Origin: Catellatospora sp. TT07R-123
Lineage (GTDB): Bacteria; Actinomycetota; Actinomycetes; Mycobacteriales; Micromonosporaceae
Direction of reading: 5' to 3'
DNA length: 64,000 nt
Assembly (NCBI RefSeq): GCF_018327705.1
Contig: NZ_BNEM01000001.1
Location: forward strand, 1,426,001 to 1,490,000
Below the pieces are notes generated by a model. The model was not told the origin of the DNA. It was given only the letters and a program-made list of their open reading frames with translations, and searched no databases. Below are positions 5,965 to 61,215 of the stretch, in pieces (the first letter of the stretch is position 1; the number at the start of each line of letters is the position of its first letter). The position numbers and the translations under genes are program-made.

Positions 5965-8289
5965 TCAGTCCCGGGCCAGGGCCGCGAAGGCCTCCTTCTC
6001 CAGGTCGAGGTACTGGTCCTGGCCGACGTAGACCTCGACCTGGCGGATGGTGCCGCCCCGGAACGCCGACGGCTGCGGGTAGTCGGCGCTGACCGGGTCG
6101 CTGCTGTCGCGCCCCACGCACAGGCCGTCGCCGCACAGCGAGAACATCCCGATCTGGGTACGCATCGGACCCTCGGCCACCATCGTGTCGTTCACCCACA
6201 GCTTGGTGTGCCCCAGCGTCTCGTGGTGCTCGCCCTCGCCCTGCTTGGCGAACTCGACCCCGAACACGTACCGGCCGGGTGCCAGCGGCTCGGAGACGAA
6301 CCGCTGCTCCGGCGGCACCCCGAGGAAGTTGTACACGTAGTGGACCCGGCGGTCCTTGAGGAACAGCGCGTGCCCGCCGAACCGCGAGCCGTGCGCGAAG
6401 ATCACCCCGGACGCGTCCGGTTCGGCGACGTCGACACTGGCCAGCAGCCGGTACGACCGGCCGCGGATGTTGGCCGCGATCGCCTCCGGCACCTCGGCCG
6501 CGTCCGGGTAGTAGACGTAGGAGTCGGTCGGCGGGAACGGCTGCGGGCGCGGGTCGGCCAGGATGTCGCGCGGGAACCGGTCGTCCAGCGGCAGCACCTG
6601 GTATTTCTCCGCCTCCGACAACCACAGCGCCTTCAGCTCGTCGAGCTTGTCCGGATGCTTGGCGGCGACGTCCACGGCCTCGGCCCGGTCGTCGTCGGTG
6701 TAGTACAGCTCCCAGACGTCCTTGTCGAAGTTGCCCAGACCCGAGGTCGGACCGTGCACGGTGACGGCCTTCCAGCCGTCCTGCCAGATGCCCCGGGTGC
6801 CCAGCATCGCGTAGTACTGCTGCCGCTTGGTGGTGGCCGCCTCGGCGTCGTCGAAGCCGTACCTCATCGACACGCCCGGCAGCGGGACCTGCGCCACCCC
6901 GTTCACGGTGTCCGGGAACTCCACCCCGCAGCAGTCCAGGATCGTCGGCACGATGTCGGTGACGTGGTGGTACTGGTGCCGGATCTCGCCCCGCGCCTTG
7001 ATCCCCTTCGGCCAGGAGATCACCAGCGGGTCCGCGGTGCCGCCCGCGTACGAGTAGCGCTTGAACATCTTGAACGGGGTGCTGAACGCCGCCGTCCAGC
7101 CCGTCGGGTAGTGGTTGTACGTGTTCGGGCTGCCCAGATCGCCGAGGTGCCGCATGTTCTCGGCCATCTCGTCGGGCCAGCCGTTGAAGAACTTGTTCTC
7201 GTTGACCGACCCGTTCGGGCCGCCCTCCCCCGAGGCGCCGTTGTCGGCGCAGTACACGATCAGGGTGTTGTCGAGCTGGTCGGTCTGCTCCAGGAACTCG
7301 ACGATCCGCCCGATCTGGTGGTCGGTGTACTCGGAGAACCCGGCGTACACCTCCGCCATCCGCGCGAACAGCTTCTTCTCGTCGCCGGATAGGGAGTCCC
7401 AGGACCGTACCGTGTCGTTGGGGTCGAACGTGCCCTCAGGCATCGGGTTCAGGCCGGTCAGCCTCGTCCCCGCCGGCATGATCCCCAGCTCGGTCATCCG
7501 CTTGAGCGCCCAGTCGCGGTACGACTCGTACCCGTCGTCGAACTTGCCCTGGTACCGGTCGGCCCACTCGGTGGCGACGTGGTGCGGGGCGTGGTTGGCG
7601 CCCGGGTTGAACCACATCAGCCACGGCTTGCCCGGCGCGCAGGCGCGACTGTCGCGCAGCATCTGGATCGCCCGGTCGGCCAGGTCCTTGGACAGGTGGT
7701 AGCCGTCCTCCGGCGGGTACGGCTGGTCGATGTAGCGGTTGTCCTCGACCAGCGTCGGATACCACTGGTTGGTCTCGCCGCCGATGAACCCGTAGAACCG
7801 GTCCCAGCCCTTGCGCAGCGGCCAGCTGCGCTTGCTCGCGCCCGGGTTGGCCTCCTCGACGGGAACGCTGTGGTTCTTGCCCACCCAGTACGTGTTCCAG
7901 CCCCGGTCCCGCAGCACCTGCGCCATGGTCGCGCACTCGTCGGGGATGTGCCCGTTCGCACCGGGGAACCCGATCGAGCCCTCGGTGATGCAGGCCATGC
8001 CGTTCTGGTGGTGGTTGCGGCCGGTCAGCAGCACCGACCTGGTCGGCGAGCACAGCGCCGTGGTGTGCCACTGCGAGTAGCGCAAACCGTTGTCGGCCAG
8101 CCGCTTGAGCGTCGGCATCTCGATCCGGCCACCGAACGGCTCCCACGCGGCCAGGCCGGTGTCGTCGAACAGCACGATCAGCACGTTCGGGGCGCCGTCC
8201 GGCGCCTTCGGCGACTCGTACGGCGTCCAGTCCGCCACCGAGTCCCGCACGTCCAGCTTGATGACGCCCTTGAACTGCGCCTCACCCAT
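5965..8289 (-). CDS. Type I sulfatase (arylsulfatase), large form
   Basis: 774 residues. Sulfate-ester hydrolase of the alkaline-phosphatase superfamily. The signature CSPTRSVLLTGRN places the cysteine that becomes formylglycine at residue 80. NVLIVLFDDTG supplies the N-terminal metal-binding Asp pair (42-43), WVGKNH and YCADNG the later active-site segments. About 200 extra C-terminal residues (SRFGGHALFLKDRRVHYVYNF onward) form a beta-rich domain seen in large arylsulfatases. No signal peptide is visible, so it is probably cytoplasmic unless exported by another route. ATG 8289 is preceded by a GGGGGGTG stretch. It belongs to the same strand as the mannan genes but is separated by a terminator hairpin. 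Confidence 0.9.
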   Translation of the reverse strand: MGEAQFKGVIKLDVRDSVADWTPYESPKAPDGAPNVLIVLFDDTGLAAWEPFGGRIEMPTLKRLADNGLRYSQWHTTALCSPTRSVLLTGRNHHQNGMACITEGSIGFPGANGHIPDECATMAQVLRDRGWNTYWVGKNHSVPVEEANPGASKRSWPLRKGWDRFYGFIGGETNQWYPTLVEDNRYIDQPYPPEDGYHLSKDLADRAIQMLRDSRACAPGKPWLMWFNPGANHAPHHVATEWADRYQGKFDDGYESYRDWALKRMTELGIMPAGTRLTGLNPMPEGTFDPNDTVRSWDSLSGDEKKLFARMAEVYAGFSEYTDHQIGRIVEFLEQTDQLDNTLIVYCADNGASGEGGPNGSVNENKFFNGWPDEMAENMRHLGDLGSPNTYNHYPTGWTAAFSTPFKMFKRYSYAGGTADPLVISWPKGIKARGEIRHQYHHVTDIVPTILDCCGVEFPDTVNGVAQVPLPGVSMRYGFDDAEAATTKRQQYYAMLGTRGIWQDGWKAVTVHGPTSGLGNFDKDVWELYYTDDDRAEAVDVAAKHPDKLDELKALWLSEAEKYQVLPLDDRFPRDILADPRPQPFPPTDSYVYYPDAAEVPEAIAANIRGRSYRLLASVDVAEPDASGVIFAHGSRFGGHALFLKDRRVHYVYNFLGVPPEQRFVSEPLAPGRYVFGVEFAKQGEGEHHETLGHTKLWVNDTMVAEGPMRTQIGMFSLCGDGLCVGRDSSDPVSADYPQPSAFRGGTIRQVEVYVGQDQYLDLEKEAFAALARD

Positions 8290-8396
8290 GGCACACCCCC
8301 CAGTCCACCCTAGGTGCGCCACCGATGCCCCGAACCCGAAACGGGCAACGGACCGAACGATCCGGACAGCCGCGAACGGGCACGGGGAGCCCTTCC

Positions 8397-8431
8397 CGAT
8401 GCCGGGCCGGACGCCTCCCGGCCCGGCATCG
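8397..8431. terminator. GC-rich hairpin after GH26 gene
   Basis: 14-bp perfect stem (8397-8410 with 8418-8431) and a 7-base loop, 16 bases beyond the stop of the minus-strand mannanase. A typical actinomycete terminator without a strong T-tract. Confidence 0.7.
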
Positions 8432-8446
8432 TCTTGTCCCGGCCCG

Positions 8447-9892
8447 CTAGGCGGGCAGGGTCCACTGCTGGTTGGTCTGGGTGTTGCAGGTCCAGAGCTG
8501 GAGTTTGGTGCCGTCCGCGGTGCCCTGGCCGGTGGCGTCGAGGCACTTGCCGGTGGCCGGGTTGGTCAGGCGCCGGGTGGTGGCGTTGTAGGTCCACTGC
8601 TGGTTCAGGTTGGCGGCGGTGCAGTCCCAGATCTGGATCTTCGTGCCGTCGGCGCTGCCGCCGCCGGCGACGTCCAGGCATTTGCCCAGCGCCCGTACCG
8701 TGCCGTCGGTGCCGACCGTCCAGCTCTGCGCGGTGGTGCCGTTGCAGGTCCAGAGCTGCACCTGCAGGCCGTTGGTGGTGGCCGCGCCCGGAACGTCGAC
8801 GCAACGGCCGGAGCCGATGCCGACGATCGGCCCGGTGCCGCCCGATCCGCCACCGCCGCCGACCGGGATGGAGATCTCGCCCCGGTTGAGCACGCGCGCG
8901 TCGTAGTAGGTGGCCTTGACCCCGTCGTCGGTGTTGTACTCCGGCTTGGTCAGCCAGTCCATCCATACGCTGAAGTAGGTCCAGCGGGGCTGGGCGGCCA
9001 GCTGCGCCGGGGTGGGGGTGCGGCCGACCTCGGCCAGCGCGATCGGCTTGCCGTGGGAGATGTTCTGGATCGCCTGGTACCACTCGGTCGAGGGGAAGTA
9101 CTGCACCCACACGTCGAGGGTCACCAGGTCCACATAGTTGTCACCCGGGTAGTAGTCGGCGACCCGGGCGGCGCCCCCGCTGACGTCCTTGACGTTCCAG
9201 ACCCAGACGATGTTGTCGAAGCCCCGGCCGACCAGGTAGTCGTGGGTGATCTGGAACAGCTTGCGGCTGCCGGTGGCGCCGGGGCGCCCGCCCCACCAGG
9301 CCCAGCCCTCGTTCATCTCGTGCGAGGGCCGGAACAGCACCGGAATCCCGGCGTCCTTGAGCTGCTGGAAGTAGGGCGCGGTCTGGTCGAGGCGCCGCTT
9401 CCACGAGGTGTTCAGCGTGGTGCCGTCGGTGACCAGCTCGTTCCACTGGCTGTCGGACAGCCAGCTGCCCTTCACCGGCCAGGTGCCGCCCTCGAAGTTG
9501 CAGGTGGCGACCAGCGGCACGCACGCGTGCCAGGTGATCGCCGGGATGGTCCCGGCCGCCCAGGCCGCCTTGGCCTGGTCGAACACGCGCTGCCGGTTGT
9601 CGATGTCGCTCTGGCTGAACCCGAAGTCGCCGCCCCACACCCCCGGGAACAGGCCGGTGATGTCGCGGACCTTGTTGGTCCACTGGGTCGGGTTGCTGTT
9701 GGGCCCGTCCTGCTGCCCGGACAGCCAGTTGCGGCCGCTGATGCCCTGGAAATAGTTGATCACGTCGGTACGGGTGACGCCCGGCGCGCCGGGCGGTGCC
9801 GCCAGCGCCGGCTGGGCCGGTGCTGAGGTCAGGCCGAGGGCGGCGGCGAGGGTCGCCGCGGCCAGCAGCCGGGTGAGTCGGCGTGAAGCCAT
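8447..9892 (-). CDS. Secreted GH26 beta-mannanase with C-terminal ricin-type lectin domain
   Basis: 481 residues. A signal peptide ends near ALAAPPG. The GH26 catalytic domain (about residues 35-335) carries the acid/base Glu in RPSHEMNEGWAWWGG (about 190) and the nucleophile Glu in IALAEVG (about 288), so it should cut internal beta-1,4-mannosidic bonds. A GGGGGS linker leads to a three-repeat ricin/CBM13 domain (about 350-481) with GRCVDVPG, GKCLDVAG, GKCLDATG and QxW motifs. ATG 9892 (MASRRLTR) begins the signal peptide. A longer open frame runs upstream but is only a shadow of the esterase gene. It is the last gene of the minus-strand mannan cluster. Confidence 0.93.
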   Translation of the reverse strand: MASRRLTRLLAAATLAAALGLTSAPAQPALAAPPGAPGVTRTDVINYFQGISGRNWLSGQQDGPNSNPTQWTNKVRDITGLFPGVWGGDFGFSQSDIDNRQRVFDQAKAAWAAGTIPAITWHACVPLVATCNFEGGTWPVKGSWLSDSQWNELVTDGTTLNTSWKRRLDQTAPYFQQLKDAGIPVLFRPSHEMNEGWAWWGGRPGATGSRKLFQITHDYLVGRGFDNIVWVWNVKDVSGGAARVADYYPGDNYVDLVTLDVWVQYFPSTEWYQAIQNISHGKPIALAEVGRTPTPAQLAAQPRWTYFSVWMDWLTKPEYNTDDGVKATYYDARVLNRGEISIPVGGGGGSGGTGPIVGIGSGRCVDVPGAATTNGLQVQLWTCNGTTAQSWTVGTDGTVRALGKCLDVAGGGSADGTKIQIWDCTAANLNQQWTYNATTRRLTNPATGKCLDATGQGTADGTKLQLWTCNTQTNQQWTLPA

Positions 9893-9966
9893 GGTGGTGG
9901 TCGCCTTTCGGATGCGGAGGTGCGGATGTCCGGCCGACGGGACGCGGCCGGGGACTCCGCCTGCGG

Positions 9967-11745
9967 TCAGGCGGTCGGCAGGCGGAAGCGCTGGAAGAAC
10001 TGCCACATCAGGGTGTTGGCGCTGATCTCGCGGGTGGTGTTGCCGTTGCCGGGCGAGGCCTGGGCGGTGCCGGGCCAGGTGTGCCCGCCGTCGGAGATCA
10101 CGTACAGCTGCACGTCGGCTCCGTCGCGGCAGCCCTGGTAGGCGGTCCGCGACACGTGCGCCGACACCGCGGTGGCCACCGGCGAGCCCGCGCACGAGTC
10201 CACCGCCGCCCACCGCGCGAGCGCGACGGGGACGGAGTACTGCCACAGCTCGGACCCGCCGCCGGAGTACGGGTTGGTGGCGTCCTGCTGCCCGTGGAAC
10301 GCGATCACCGGCACCGCCCGCGCGGGCCGGCACGACGCCGGGTCCGGCCGGGAGGTGTCGGCCGGGTCGGGCCGCCCGGCCCGCAGCCCGGCGACCGGGG
10401 CGACCGCCGCGACCAGGTCCGGCCGGGCACACGCGAACGCCGAGGTCATCCGGCCGCCACCGGAGTAGCCGGTCAGGTAGACGCGGCTGCTGTCGGCGCA
10501 CAGCGCGGTGCCGGTCATGGTGGCGATCACCTGGGCCAGGAAGGCGACGTCGTCCCGGCCGGGCGGCGGGCTGCCGACCCCGGGCACGTTCCAGGCGTAG
10601 CCGCCGCCGTTGACGAACGCGCCGTTCGGTGCCGCGACCAGGAACCGGCCCGCGTCGGCGGCGCCGCGCATCTCGCTGTAGGCGAGCTGGTTGCCGCCGG
10701 TGCCGGAGGTGCCGTGCAGGTTGAGCACGAGCGGCAGCCGCGCGTCGGCGGCGGCACCGGCGGGGACGTACACGGTGACCTGGTAGGTGGTGCCGTTGAG
10801 GGTGACCGGCACGGTGCGCTCGCCGGAGCCGAACGCACGGGTGCACGGCAGCGGGCCGGACGTGCCGGCGGGCACGGTCCACTGCTGGTTGGCCTGGCCG
10901 TTGCAGGTCCAGAGCTGGAGCCTGGTGCCGTCGGTGGTGCCCTGGCCGGTGGCGTCGAGGCACTTGCCGGTCTCGGGATTCACCAGGGTCCTGCCCGCCG
11001 TGTCGTAGGTCCACTGCTGGTGGGTGTTGCCCACGGTGCAGTCCCAGAGCTGCACCTTGGTCCCGTCGGCGTTGATCCCGCCGTTGACGTCCAGGCACTT
11101 GCCGAGCACGCGCAGGGTGGCGCCGGAGCCGGGGGTGAACGCCTGCGCGGCGCCACCGGTGCAGGCCATCAGCTGGGCCTGGGTGCCGTTGGCGGTGGCG
11201 GGCAGGTCGACGCACCGGCCGGAGGCGGCGCCGGTGATCGGACCGGTCGTGGCCGTGGGGGCACCGGGCAGGGTCCAGCGCTGGTTAGCCTGGCCGTTGC
11301 AGGCCCAGATCTGGAGCCTGGTGCCGTCGGCGCCGGACTGCCCGGTGGCGTCGAGGCAGCGGCCGGTCTGCGGGTTGACCAGGGTCGCGGCGGTGCTGCT
11401 GTATGTCCACTGCTGGTGGGCGTTGCCCGCGACGCAGGCCCAGAGCTGGACCTTGGTCCCGTCGGTGCTGGTCCCGCCACTGACGTCGAGGCACCCGCCC
11501 AGCGCGCGGATCGTGCCGTCGGCTCCGATCGTCCAGGCCTGGGCCGTGCCGCCGTTGCACGTGTAGAGCTGGACCTGCGTGCCGTCGGCCGGATTGGCGC
11601 CGGCCACGTCGACGCACTTGCCGCCCAGGCCGATGATCGGCCCGACCGGGTCGGCGGCGGCGCCCGGGGCCGCACCCGCGACCAGCAGCGTGGCCAGCAA
11701 CGCGAGTGCGCCCAGCGAGGCCGCGCTGAACCTATATTTCAGCAT
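9967..11745 (-). CDS. Secreted CE1/PHB-depolymerase-like esterase with two N-terminal ricin lectin domains
   Basis: 592 residues. Signal peptide (cut near GAAA-DPVG), then two ricin/CBM13 domains in tandem (about 31-165 and 170-290), then an alpha/beta hydrolase of the LpqC/feruloyl-esterase type. The oxyanion stretch is LPLVLNLHGTSGTGG, the serine nucleophile sits in GYSGGG (about residue 428), and the late His is in SDGGHTWPG. Position between two mannanases suggests removal of acetyl or other ester groups from mannan, but the substrate is inferred. The start is firm: GAAGGAGA lies just before ATG 11745. The lectin domains are N-terminal here, C-terminal in the flanking mannanases. Confidence 0.88.
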   Translation of the reverse strand: MLKYRFSAASLGALALLATLLVAGAAPGAAADPVGPIIGLGGKCVDVAGANPADGTQVQLYTCNGGTAQAWTIGADGTIRALGGCLDVSGGTSTDGTKVQLWACVAGNAHQQWTYSSTAATLVNPQTGRCLDATGQSGADGTRLQIWACNGQANQRWTLPGAPTATTGPITGAASGRCVDLPATANGTQAQLMACTGGAAQAFTPGSGATLRVLGKCLDVNGGINADGTKVQLWDCTVGNTHQQWTYDTAGRTLVNPETGKCLDATGQGTTDGTRLQLWTCNGQANQQWTVPAGTSGPLPCTRAFGSGERTVPVTLNGTTYQVTVYVPAGAAADARLPLVLNLHGTSGTGGNQLAYSEMRGAADAGRFLVAAPNGAFVNGGGYAWNVPGVGSPPPGRDDVAFLAQVIATMTGTALCADSSRVYLTGYSGGGRMTSAFACARPDLVAAVAPVAGLRAGRPDPADTSRPDPASCRPARAVPVIAFHGQQDATNPYSGGGSELWQYSVPVALARWAAVDSCAGSPVATAVSAHVSRTAYQGCRDGADVQLYVISDGGHTWPGTAQASPGNGNTTREISANTLMWQFFQRFRLPTA

Positions 11746-30684: not shown

Positions 30685-30754
30685 TTCGTGCAGTTTCGGG
30701 GAAAGTGCAGGAATCATGGCCGGGTTTCGTGCACTTTCCCCGAAACTGCACGAA
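30685..30754. repeat. Palindrome IR-5, 25-bp perfect arms
   Basis: Arms 30685-30709 and 30730-30754 match exactly, 20-base loop. The arm contains GTGCAGTTTCGGGGAAAGTG, the same as palindrome IR-6 at 58401. Starts two bases after a stop codon and lies upstream of the HSP90 promoter. Confidence 0.9.
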
Positions 30755-57499: not shown

Positions 57500-58351
57500 T
57501 CACCGCCGTGCGACCGGCCTGATCGGATCGGGGCCGAGATCTGCCAGCCGGTATCCGTCCGGATAGGTCCGCGACGGCCGGCCCGGCACGAAGAACGGCT
57601 CCGGCACCGGCCGCAGGCGGCGGACCAGGGCGCTGAGCTTGAGCAGCAGGTGCACCGCCGCCCGGATCGCGGGGTTCGGCCGGGGCACGCCGAGCGCCCG
57701 GCGCACCGGCTCGTCGAGCAGGGCGTCGCCCGCGGCGGCGGCGAAGCGGCGCAGGGGCTTGGGGAACCGGTTGGCGAGCACGTCGCGGGTCGCGTCGATC
57801 AGCCTGGTCGCGGCGTCGTCGTGGGCGAAGTTCGCGCGCTCGTACGCGTCGAACCAGGTCTCGAACTCCGCCCAGGTCGCGGGTAGGTCGCCGATGTTCA
57901 TCAGCCGCCCGACCGCGCGGTAGAAGTGCCAGGTCGCCGCCCGCTCCTCGGAACGCAGGCGGCGCGGGCCGTAGCGGTCGATCCACCGGGTCGGGATGAA
58001 GACGAACGTGCCCAGGACGTAGCGGTACTCGTCGGGGCTGATGTCGTAGACGCGGTGGATGCGGTTGAGCATCGCGATGACGTGGCGGGCGCGCGGGTGG
58101 TCGGGGCCGTGGGCGATCAGCTCGTACATCATCAGGCCGGTGTCGTCGGCCCGCTTGCGGGTGCGTTCGGTCAGCTCGCCGGTGTCCAGCAGCAGCCGCG
58201 CGATCGCGGGCACCGCGAACGTCCGGTAGAACGCCAGGTTGAGCCCCAGCCGCATGTCCGTACCGAACTCCCGCAGCGCGAGATGCCGGTAGACCGCGTA
58301 ATGGTCCGTCACCGACGGCTGCGAACGGCCGGTGCCGGCAGGGGTCTCCAC
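57500..58351 (-). CDS. MpaB-family (DUF2236) oxygenase-like protein
   Basis: 283 residues from GTG 58351, with GAGAGGATC upstream. Helical protein with family landmarks LLLDTGELTERTRKRADDTGLMMYELI, MLNRIHRVYDISPDEYRYVLGTFVFIPTRWIDRYG, and LPATWAEFETWFDAYE. The N..H..Y pattern around MLNRIH is where MpaB/latex-oxygenase-like proteins bind heme. Substrate unknown. The palindrome IR-6 lies upstream, between it and the disrupted esterase. Confidence 0.8.
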   Translation of the reverse strand: METPAGTGRSQPSVTDHYAVYRHLALREFGTDMRLGLNLAFYRTFAVPAIARLLLDTGELTERTRKRADDTGLMMYELIAHGPDHPRARHVIAMLNRIHRVYDISPDEYRYVLGTFVFIPTRWIDRYGPRRLRSEERAATWHFYRAVGRLMNIGDLPATWAEFETWFDAYERANFAHDDAATRLIDATRDVLANRFPKPLRRFAAAAGDALLDEPVRRALGVPRPNPAIRAAVHLLLKLSALVRRLRPVPEPFFVPGRPSRTYPDGYRLADLGPDPIRPVARR

Positions 58352-58400
58352 ACACGAGATCCTCTCCCACCGTCCGATCGCGCGCCGACCGGGCGATGAG

Positions 58401-58472
58401 GTTTGTGCAGTTTCGGGGAAAGTGCACGAATCCGAGCCAAGATTCCAGCACTTTCCCCGAAACTGCACGAAC
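58401..58472. repeat. Palindrome IR-6, 25-bp arms (one mismatch)
   Basis: Arms 58401-58425 and 58448-58472, 24 of 25 paired. Its arm matches that of IR-5 at 30685 at 20 consecutive bases (GTGCAGTTTCGGGGAAAGTG). The loop holds GAGCCAAGAT, also present in the arm of IR-7 at 60154. Confidence 0.9.
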
Positions 58473-58483
58473 GCCGCGGCGCC

Positions 58484-59344
58484 CTAGCGCGACGTGGGGC
58501 GGGGGTGGGCGGCGAAGAAGGTCCAGATGGCGGCGGTGGCGTCGAGGGCGGTCGACGGCGGGTCGAGGCCGAGGGCGCGTTCCAGGACGGGTTTGGGGAC
58601 CGAGCCGGGCCACTGGTGGCCGGCCCCGGCGACGACGATCAGCTCGACCGCGCGGCCGTCGGGGCAGGACGACAGCGCCGTGGTCACCCCGCCCGCCGTG
58701 GTGACGGCTGGGGCGGCGCAGCCGTCGACCGCGCGCCAGCCGTCGATCACCTCCGGCACGGGCGGCCCGTCGATGGTGGCGAAGCCGTCGCCGGGGCTGC
58801 CGTCGAGCGCGATGTTGTGGTCGGCGTCGCCGTGCACGTGGATCACCGACACGGGCGCGGGGTGGTCGCAGCCGCCCAGCCGGGTCGCCGCGACCGGCCC
58901 GATCGCGGCGAACAGCGTGGTGTCGCAGGCCAGCCGGTATGCCATCAGCCCGCCGTTGGAGATGCCGGTGGCGTACACCCGCGCCGGATCGACCCGCAGC
59001 GTCTCCCCCACCCGCGCCACCATCGCCGCGATGAACGCGACGTCGTCGACGCCCTGCTCACCGGGGCGGCCGCAGCAGCCGCCGCCGACCGCCCACGCCC
59101 GGACCAGGCCGTCCGGGTACGCCACCGCGAACCCGCCCTGGTCGGCCTGCTCGTCCCACCGGTACGAGCCGCGCGCCTGCGACCCGGTGCCGAACCCGCC
59201 GTGCAGCACCACGACCAGCGGCACCGCCGCGCCCTCCGGCAGGTTCGGCGGCACGTACAGCGTGTATGTGCGTGTCTCTAAAGGACCGCCCAAACTGGGC
59301 AGCTCACACGCATGGTCGAGGTAGTTGCGGGCCTCACCTGTCAA
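58484..59344 (-). pseudogene. LpqC-like esterase, C-terminal part (gene split by mobile element)
   Basis: From codon TAC at 59266 downstream the frame encodes about 260 residues of an alpha/beta hydrolase of the PHB-depolymerase/LpqC type: TLYVPPNLPEGAAVPLVVVLHGGFG, nucleophile in ATGISNGG, late Asp in HVHGDADH, and His in AGAGHQWPG. The codons from 59267 to 59344 belong to the inserted element. The missing signal peptide and first residues are at 61078-61215. The fragment might be translated from a start in the element, but it would lack the export signal. Confidence 0.9.
59267..59287 (+). repeat. Left terminal inverted repeat
   Basis: 21 bases beginning TGTGCGTGTCTCTAAAGG, exact inverse complement of 61055-61075. 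Similarity stops sharply after the 21st base. Confidence 0.9.
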
Positions 59345-59377
59345 CGGTTGATGTAAATGTAGCGATCAGATGACACC

Positions 59378-60001
59378 ATGCACGTCATGAGCCCAGACGC
59401 TGGCGCGAGCAGTAAGAGGAAGAGCGTGCACAGTGACGACACGGCCGATCAGGTATCTACGCTCGTGCGCAGCTTGCGGCATGTCCGCCAACACGTATCA
59501 GCAGCTCTCGCCACCATCGGGCTGATGGCGACAATAAAGAGCGCATTCGACGTAAGTTGGCATAGCTTTCTACTTAACATCGCGGGCTTCTGGGATGACA
59601 CAGTCCGCCCAGCGGAAAAGTGGATACTCGATCTCCTTATCGTATATCCGCTTGGTTGGATTGGTTTGCATATAAGCTTTCCTGAATTGCTTCGCGATTA
59701 TATGGCAATCGGGTTAATTTTCATGTCCTCCGGTCTGCGGGTAAACAAAGTCTATGTAACCGATAAATCGGCCCCGATGCCGATTAGGGCGTTGGGACTC
59801 TTGCTCGCTTGGCCATTGGTGTTAACGACGACAGTCCTTGCCTTATATTATGATTGGCGGGACTCGAGAGAGAATAGGCCCCGATATTCCAACAAAAACT
59901 ACAGGCAGATACTAAAACGGGATTTCTGGAATTTCTTCTTATTGATTTCCCCGCTTCTATACGTGAGTGCGCTAGCAGTTCTAAACATATTTCTCAGTTA
60001 A
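59378..60001 (+). CDS. Element cargo gene 1: integral membrane protein, unrecognised
   Basis: 207 residues (ATG 59378, or ATG 59387). A basic, Ser-rich N-terminus of about 40 residues is followed by about five hydrophobic segments (41-57, 83-101, 109-122, 138-158, 185-206), with a basic loop RDSRENRPRYSNKNYRQILKRD between the last two. I do not recognise the family. Codon use is AT-rich, with TTA, ATA and AAA codons rare elsewhere in the window, so it came from another background. No clear ribosome-binding site, so it may be leaderless. Possible roles (immunity, effector anchor) are guesses. Confidence 0.65.
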   Translation: MHVMSPDAGASSKRKSVHSDDTADQVSTLVRSLRHVRQHVSAALATIGLMATIKSAFDVSWHSFLLNIAGFWDDTVRPAEKWILDLLIVYPLGWIGLHISFPELLRDYMAIGLIFMSSGLRVNKVYVTDKSAPMPIRALGLLLAWPLVLTTTVLALYYDWRDSRENRPRYSNKNYRQILKRDFWNFFLLISPLLYVSALAVLNIFLS

Positions 60002-60153
60002 ACTGGCGTGATGGTCCAGAAGGTTGCCCAGCATTCGGCGCGGGTGCGCGACGATGCGAGCGCGGGCGGACGGGGCGCGGTCCGTGTGCCGGTGGCGGCG
60101 CGCGCGGGGGGTCGGGCGCATCGAATGCGTCCTTACGGCCCGCCGAGAGCCAA

Positions 60154-60221
60154 TCTGAGCCAAGATCTCACCTTCTCCAGTGTTTCTAAGGGGACCGGAG
60201 ATGGTGAGATCTTGGCTCAGA
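60154..60221. repeat. Palindrome IR-7 inside the element
   Basis: Arms 60154-60178 and 60197-60221, 24 of 25 paired. The loop (60179-60196) contains GTGTTTCTAAGGGGACC, a near copy of the element's terminal repeat. The right arm encodes the last codons of cargo gene 2. The bases just before it (60005-60150) are GC-rich, unlike the rest of the element. Confidence 0.85.
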
Positions 60222-60905
60222 ATCAAGCCACGATGATTCAGCATGTCCAATCAGGTAGTCTGGGTGGCCGGAAAGTACCAGGTCTCGGGCCGTTTCCCAA
60301 TCAAGAGATGCCGGTCGGTTGACGGAAGGCTCAGAATACAATCTGATATGCACAACGTAGGCAATCGTGCTGCGTAGGCGCATGGCGTCGCCAATCGTCA
60401 TATCTGGATTGGTAGCGTCGAGAAATATTCTGCAACGCCATCCTCCAACGTCGTCGACCTCTTTAACCTGAACGAGGCGCAGACCATTTCGCTCGGCTAT
60501 TGGCACGAGGATCGCATTCCAGATCTTGTCTGACGCGAACGATGGCGTTGGAACGCTCATAAACAACCAAAGGTCGCCGTTGCACATAATATGAAACCAG
60601 ACTTCATCGAATACGCGCATTTTCTTAGTGGGCAGCGCGTCCACGATAAAGCTTGCTAGCGCGTCGGCGTCGCCATCGATAATTGTCGCGGTGGTATCGA
60701 TCGCGGTTTTATGTACTTCGCGCATCGCCGCATGGAGATCGCCAATACGGAGATCGGCGACATCGCTCAGCACCGCTACAAAGTCGCCACCGCCAGAGTC
60801 CGATATGAAGTACTCGTCCTCGCCGTTGCGGATCTGGAACCCAAGTTCCTTGCCTGCCCATGCGATCGAATCGGCCACCTGAGCATTGTCTGCGCGATTG
60901 AGCAA
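60186..60905 (-). CDS. Element cargo gene 2: soluble protein, unrecognised
   Basis: 239 residues from TTG 60905 (start uncertain, weak AAAG only). Predicted soluble alpha/beta protein without signal or membrane segment. Two regions: residues 1-95 (DSIAWAGKELGFQIRNGEDE, DFVAVLSDVADLRIGDLH) and 100-200 (VWFHIMCNGDLWLFMSVPT, IFLDATNPDMTIGDAMRLRS). I do not recognise the family. The last dozen codons come from the palindrome IR-7, so the original C-terminus was probably replaced. AT-rich codon use. Convergent with cargo gene 1. Confidence 0.65.
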   Translation of the reverse strand: MLNRADNAQVADSIAWAGKELGFQIRNGEDEYFISDSGGGDFVAVLSDVADLRIGDLHAAMREVHKTAIDTTATIIDGDADALASFIVDALPTKKMRVFDEVWFHIMCNGDLWLFMSVPTPSFASDKIWNAILVPIAERNGLRLVQVKEVDDVGGWRCRIFLDATNPDMTIGDAMRLRSTIAYVVHIRLYSEPSVNRPASLDWETARDLVLSGHPDYLIGHAESSWLDSEPRSHHLRSP

Positions 60906-61054
60906 CTTTCAAAGCGTTTCGCGTTGGTCTAGGCTGCAACGACTCCCGAGCCCAGCACAGACCAGTAGATCGCGGTATGGCTCAATCAGCCAGCCACAGC
61001 CCGCGCCCCTCCTGAGCTGCGAAGACGCTGGAACCCCGAAGTATGAGCCGAGTA

Positions 61055-61075
61055 GGTCCTTTAGAGACACGCACA
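61055..61075 (-). repeat. Right terminal inverted repeat
   Basis: Exact inverse complement of 59267-59287, ending at TA 61076-61077. Confidence 0.9.
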
Positions 61076-61077
61076 TA

Positions 61078-61215
61078 CGTGCGCTCGCGCCCGTCGATGC
61101 TGATCCGGTGCTCCGACGCCCCGGCGGGCACGGGCGGTTGCGCCCCGCGCCGGGGCTGGCAGCCCGCCAGCAGGACGGCCGCCACGACGGCCAGTGCCAC
61201 GACTCGTGCCCGCAT
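61078..61215 (-). pseudogene. LpqC-like esterase, N-terminal part (signal peptide)
   Basis: From ATG 61215 come 46 codons: lipoprotein signal MRARVVALAVVAAVLLAGC (lipid Cys at 19) and a linker ending SIDGRERT, just before the element. The frame then runs into the element and stops at 60982 after an unrelated tail. Joined to 59266 it makes one 306-residue esterase lipoprotein. Confidence 0.85.

Follow-up and report, generated by a model that had tools for sequence, protein, structure and literature searches.

A probable non-autonomous transposon derivative with 21-bp inverted ends in an esterase gene of Catellatospora sp. TT07R-123

An esterase gene of Catellatospora sp. TT07R-123 is interrupted by 1809 bp of DNA bounded by perfect 21-bp inverted repeats, with a TA outside each of them (59265-61077; Table 1). 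We consider that this element, present in a single copy, is probably a non-autonomous derivative of some TA-duplicating transposon, itself probably of the DDE type, and that it inserted into the esterase gene; it resembles the mobile insertion cassettes (MICs). Positions refer to the window, i.e. the 64,000 nucleotides that were analysed (contig NZ_BNEM01000001.1, 1,426,001 to 1,490,000). The element looks ordinary in kind, a crippled transposon whose parent was not found in the searches described below. It nevertheless shows cleanly how a non-autonomous element has disrupted a gene whose intact form can be seen in a sister species.

Table 1. Features of the element and of the interrupted gene in the window.
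Feature	Position	Strand	Basis
Interrupted esterase (Esterase_PHB), C-terminal piece	58484..59266	-	Domain match; G133 alignment
TA, left copy of target duplication	59265..59266	.	Direct reading; one TA in matching codon of uninterrupted G133 orthologue
Left terminal inverted repeat, 21 bp	59267..59287	+	Reading and repeat search
ORF1, 207 aa, predicted all-helical	59378..60001	+	ORF list; low-confidence model; homologues
GC-rich (74%) spacer, 152 bp, unlike rest of element	60002..60153	.	Composition
Hairpin-forming inverted repeat, 28-nt arms, 93% complementary	60154..60221	.	Near ORF2's departure from relatives
ORF2, 239 aa, apparently N-terminal part of larger protein	60186..60905	-	Alignment to three relatives
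Right terminal inverted repeat, 21 bp	61055..61075	-	Reading and repeat search
TA, right copy of target duplication	61076..61077	.	Direct reading; G133 comparison
Interrupted esterase, N-terminal piece with signal peptide	61076..61215	-	Start codon from G133 alignment

Terminal repeats and the interrupted esterase

The inverted repeats and their outer TAs, already given in a preliminary description of this DNA, were read directly at 59267-59287 and 61055-61075, and an inverted-repeat search returned the same repeats. Counted with the adjoining TA and a further base pair, the perfect match extends to 24 bp (59264-59287 and 61055-61078), which fits a target reading GTAC. Perfect inverted repeats within 3 kb reached at most 17 bp in 20 first-order Markov copies of the window, and the terminal repeats are therefore not explained by chance. 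The real window contains four perfect inverted repeats of 24-25 bp within 3 kb, one being the element ends and the other three being hairpins that span 61-70 bp. A 20-bp inverted repeat elsewhere in the window (20653/22613), considered as another possible element, corresponds to two oppositely oriented regulator-like genes, which on our reading may be of the LacI type. In one frame the left terminal repeat together with the target TA (59265-59287) reads YVRVSKG and resembles the start of serine resolvases, e.g. the one encoded on the metagenome contig L039; we take this as a coincidence, the Y being supplied by the esterase codon. Rfam gave nothing at 58300-61200. In a promoter/terminator scan, promoter-like sites numbered 4 against 1.3 expected (sd 1.1) and terminator-like sites 1 against 1.3; no weight was given to either.

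Counting the duplicated TA, the insertion adds 1811 bp to the esterase gene. Joining the flanks with one TA gives a frame of 306 codons with 0 internal stops, and the joined protein carries the sequence LLAGC, which we take to be lipobox-like. The comparison set consisted of 11 genomes of the genus, the present one included. Some esterase match was obtained in all 11, and one of the 10 other genomes, G133, has a close orthologue (88% identity over 256 residues); the matches in the other nine have at most 41% identity. The G133 gene is uninterrupted, and the window flanks joined with one TA align to it in frame and without a gap at the junction. The exact in-frame scar proposed earlier is thus confirmed, as is the expectation that an uninterrupted esterase would be met in a related genome. 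The empty site is seen in one genome, which belongs to another species. The joined protein shares 251 of 302 aligned residues with that of G133 over its full length, and the differences at codon positions 1, 2 and 3 number 30, 32 and 89, a distribution that selection on the gene would be expected to leave. An MPAB/Lcp-type oxygenase gene (MPAB_Lcp_cat, 82% identical) flanks the esterase on the same side in the window and in G133, so that the two loci correspond in part; it adjoins the esterase in the window, while in G133 about 1.5 kb of other ORFs lie between them. An exported esterase was likely lost through the insertion, because the signal peptide and the catalytic part are now in separate frames. 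That the ends are perfect and the reading frame is still open would fit a recent insertion. Separately, two hairpins of the window (58401-58472 and 30685-30754), one of them next to the start of the oxygenase gene, share the arm GTGCAGTTTCGGGGAAAGTGC and are probably copies of one terminator-like or REP-like repeat of this genome.

Other copies of the ends and candidate transposon families

The 21-bp ends have no further copy in the own genome and none in 299 other genomes of the family (up to 3 mismatches), and as a pair they are absent from 393 other genomes of the class (up to 2 mismatches). Exactly one end match each was found in seven of these 393 (up to 2 mismatches), and three of the seven (L048-L050) share one context. 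In the 3.0-kb loci of the seven, the only correctly oriented second match (up to 4 mismatches of 15) is 51 bases away, in L051; this search would not have detected a more diverged partner lying beyond 1.5 kb. In genome_contigs, scanned for an exact 17-mer, there was a single match; it lies in L039 and represents the beginning of a resolvase gene (PF00239), not an inverted-repeat element with these ends. The 5.3-kb contig (1-5314) has 57-nt inverted ends (93% complementary), this resolvase gene and an ORF of 1002 aa, and on our reading it appears to be a complete Tn3-type transposon. Two exact 17-base patterns were also run against IMG/VR. One gave 0 matches and the other, the same as used for genome_contigs, gave one (L065). 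A second, poorer match in L065 (3 mismatches of 15), inverted and 2.8 kb off, was set aside as chance: it has no TA at the expected position, it falls inside an ORF, and no transposase was seen among the ORFs of the contig. The proposal that the repeat would be met next to other cargo or a DDE transposase was therefore not borne out in the genomes searched. We infer mobility from one insertion, since no second copy, same-ended relative or autonomous partner was found.

The TA duplication had been taken as pointing to the IS630/Tc1-mariner family, whose members target TA and produce 2-bp duplications. As a particular form of the transposon explanation, an IS630/Tc1-mariner derivative is quite possible, though this assignment is tentative. 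The duplication itself stands, and the family is not established by it: a 2-bp duplication by itself is weak evidence, and the IS630-type domain DDE_3 (PF13358), which was positive in 3 of 14 known genomes used as control, has 0 matches in the own genome. The IS427 group of IS5 likewise has 2-bp repeats, in 10 of the 11 IS5/IS427 rows of Table 2 of PMC3281130, a table in which the repeat letters are not given. Descent of the element from this group appears rather doubtful. It would agree with the presence of IS5-type (DUF4096) transposase pieces at two places in the own genome, both within about 2.2 kb of the other ORF1 gene (C2:759-762 kb). However, the ends of one DUF4096 element (AGGCCCCATCTCATTTGATG, 2 mismatches between arms) differ from those of the present element, and no ends were found for the second. 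For both families, the 2-bp duplication is what the element shares; no transposase was recognised in it, and no matching ends were found in the searches described above.

A broader proposal, that the ends belong to an undescribed family of TA-duplicating transposons which moves mobile-island genes in trans between actinobacteria, and of which this would be the first visible copy, is in our opinion quite unlikely. An unseen transposase could nevertheless be sought with the 21-bp ends as a concrete probe, and the element stays a curiosity if none is ever met.

The two internal reading frames

GC content is 49.5% in the left reading frame, ORF1, and 54.1% over 60222-60905, i.e. the 228 codons of the right one, ORF2, outside the hairpin. 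GC3 is 0.58 in ORF1 and 0.59 in ORF2 versus 0.98 in the C-terminal esterase piece. By its base composition the interior of the element looks foreign. The two genes were previously called AT-rich, which holds in comparison with the esterase; the term is only relative, and the spacer between ORF1 and the hairpin is GC-rich. The absence of a recognisable recombinase was upheld, as neither ORF has a match above the curated cut-off in Pfam or NCBIfam. A resemblance of ORF1 to the serine recombinase CcrB (NCBIfam, 15.7 bits, E 0.0044, against a cut-off of 900) was discounted. In PHROGs, the only match for the two ORFs was to a family without assigned function (E 0.074), and the whole element has no match at the DNA level on plasmids.

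ORF1 probably encodes a multi-pass membrane protein, as suggested by its sequence; its single-sequence structure model is all-helical and of low confidence (mean pLDDT 60.3). A single-sequence search gave no match in the 393 other genomes of the class. One homologue is present in the own genome (C2:761770-762309, 34% identity), flanked on either side by IS5-type (DUF4096) and DDE_Tnp_4 transposase genes. When 250 genomes of the family, the own included, were searched with a profile, matches were obtained in at least two others, G133 and G017, with at most 10 first-look candidates scored per genome, so that relatives may be missed. The G133 homologue is split over two frames, and that of G017 adjoins an IS110-type piece scoring just below the Pfam cut-off. 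These three homologues are without exact flanking inverted repeats of more than 12 bp within 3 kb; on one side of the G133 homologue there is less than 1 kb of contig. No ORF1 relative was found on plasmids, phages or viral contigs, the last searched with ORF1 alone and as alignment A1. Around the other ORF1 gene of the own genome, the IS5-type and DDE_Tnp_4 transposase genes form a cluster at about 6950-11700 of locus L044 (G000:C2:752001-771000), which is likely an insertion hot spot.

ORF2 has matches in 1 of 393 other genomes of the class and in 2 of 249 other genomes of the family, all of them weak. The three relatives are 347-448 aa long and continue past the end point of ORF2. Their alignment reveals a common AlbA_2-like C-terminal region, in which Pfam SLFN_AlbA_2 is matched below cut-off in one relative (20.2 versus 25.3 bits, E 0.00088) and nothing is matched in the other two. 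ORF2 stops shortly past a shared ESxW motif, at the hairpin. Because the relatives are longer, ORF2 ends at the hairpin and nothing left of their C-terminal region was detected in the element, ORF2 is most likely the stump of a larger gene. The second of the two genes described earlier is thus present as an ORF that appears 3'-truncated, and the label "cargo-carrying", although there are two ORFs inside, is weakened accordingly. Modelled without an alignment, ORF2 gave a poor structure (mean pLDDT 47.5). A match to the plasmid collection at E 0.1 is irrelevant, and ORF2 was not found on phages, in genome_contigs or in viral contigs, the last searched with ORF2 alone and with alignment A2.

Another reading is that both genes are functional cargo under selection, for example a membrane protein and its partner in phage defence. 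In its favour, the G027 protein (L055), a full-length relative of ORF2, is matched in 8 plasmid records, in 2 of which the match covers at least 80% of the protein; one match has neighbours labelled Abi family and ABC-three component system, and another sits between hypothetical proteins. The ORF1 relatives near transposase genes in the own genome and in G017 would be compatible with such a role. Functional cargo is nevertheless very unlikely: ORF2 is without the C-terminal region of its relatives, relatives of ORF1 and ORF2 turn up in different genomes, the own genome apart, and PADLOC gave no match to ORF1, ORF2 or five relatives.

Proposed origin and relation to known elements

In the transposon explanation that we favour, a transposase acting in trans, by a presumed DDE chemistry, would bind both 21-bp ends, and the 1809-bp element would insert at the TA of GTAC in the esterase gene, leaving a TA on both sides. 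The element's own transposase may have been lost by deletion or replacement, and the element may have entered from another genome.

Mobile insertion cassettes, MIC231 of Bacillus cereus being one of them, carry passenger genes between insertion sequence ends. Many MITEs, with which the element had been compared, duplicate TA. Non-autonomy and inverted ends are indeed shared with MITEs, but these are short and multi-copy, whereas the element is 1809 bp long, has gene content and is present once in its genome. "Mobile insertion cassette" is therefore the better fit. PMC3129680 groups MICs with MITEs and solo IRs as IS-related objects, and indicates that some such objects without their own transposase can be activated by a cognate one. 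MICs are also named in PMC6542083. The present element is likewise an IS-related object in which no transposase is recognised, with inverted ends and a target duplication, and it too has passenger genes, but one is apparently truncated. It is single-copy, and no cognate IS was found in the searches of the family, the class, plasmids, IMG/VR and genome_contigs. We call it MIC-like and not a MIC because the matching autonomous IS was not found in these genomes and collections. Searches of the literature on Catellatospora insertion sequences and transposases and on Micromonosporaceae MITEs returned nothing on this element.

Tn3-type miniature elements (TIME) have a 5-bp duplication and ends of about 38 bp, and were rejected as an identity for the element, which has only a TA duplication and 21-bp ends. 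Attachment sites of serine recombinases are unusual when directionless. Integration by such an enzyme at a TA crossover, with the repeats being attachment-site arms and the element not a transposon, is highly improbable: inverted arms on either side of a 2-bp core would have the same appearance as the ends seen here, and a TA core with no recombinase inside is allowed if the enzyme acts in trans, but none is recognised in the element, and perfect 21-bp arms with a self-complementary core would give no direction.
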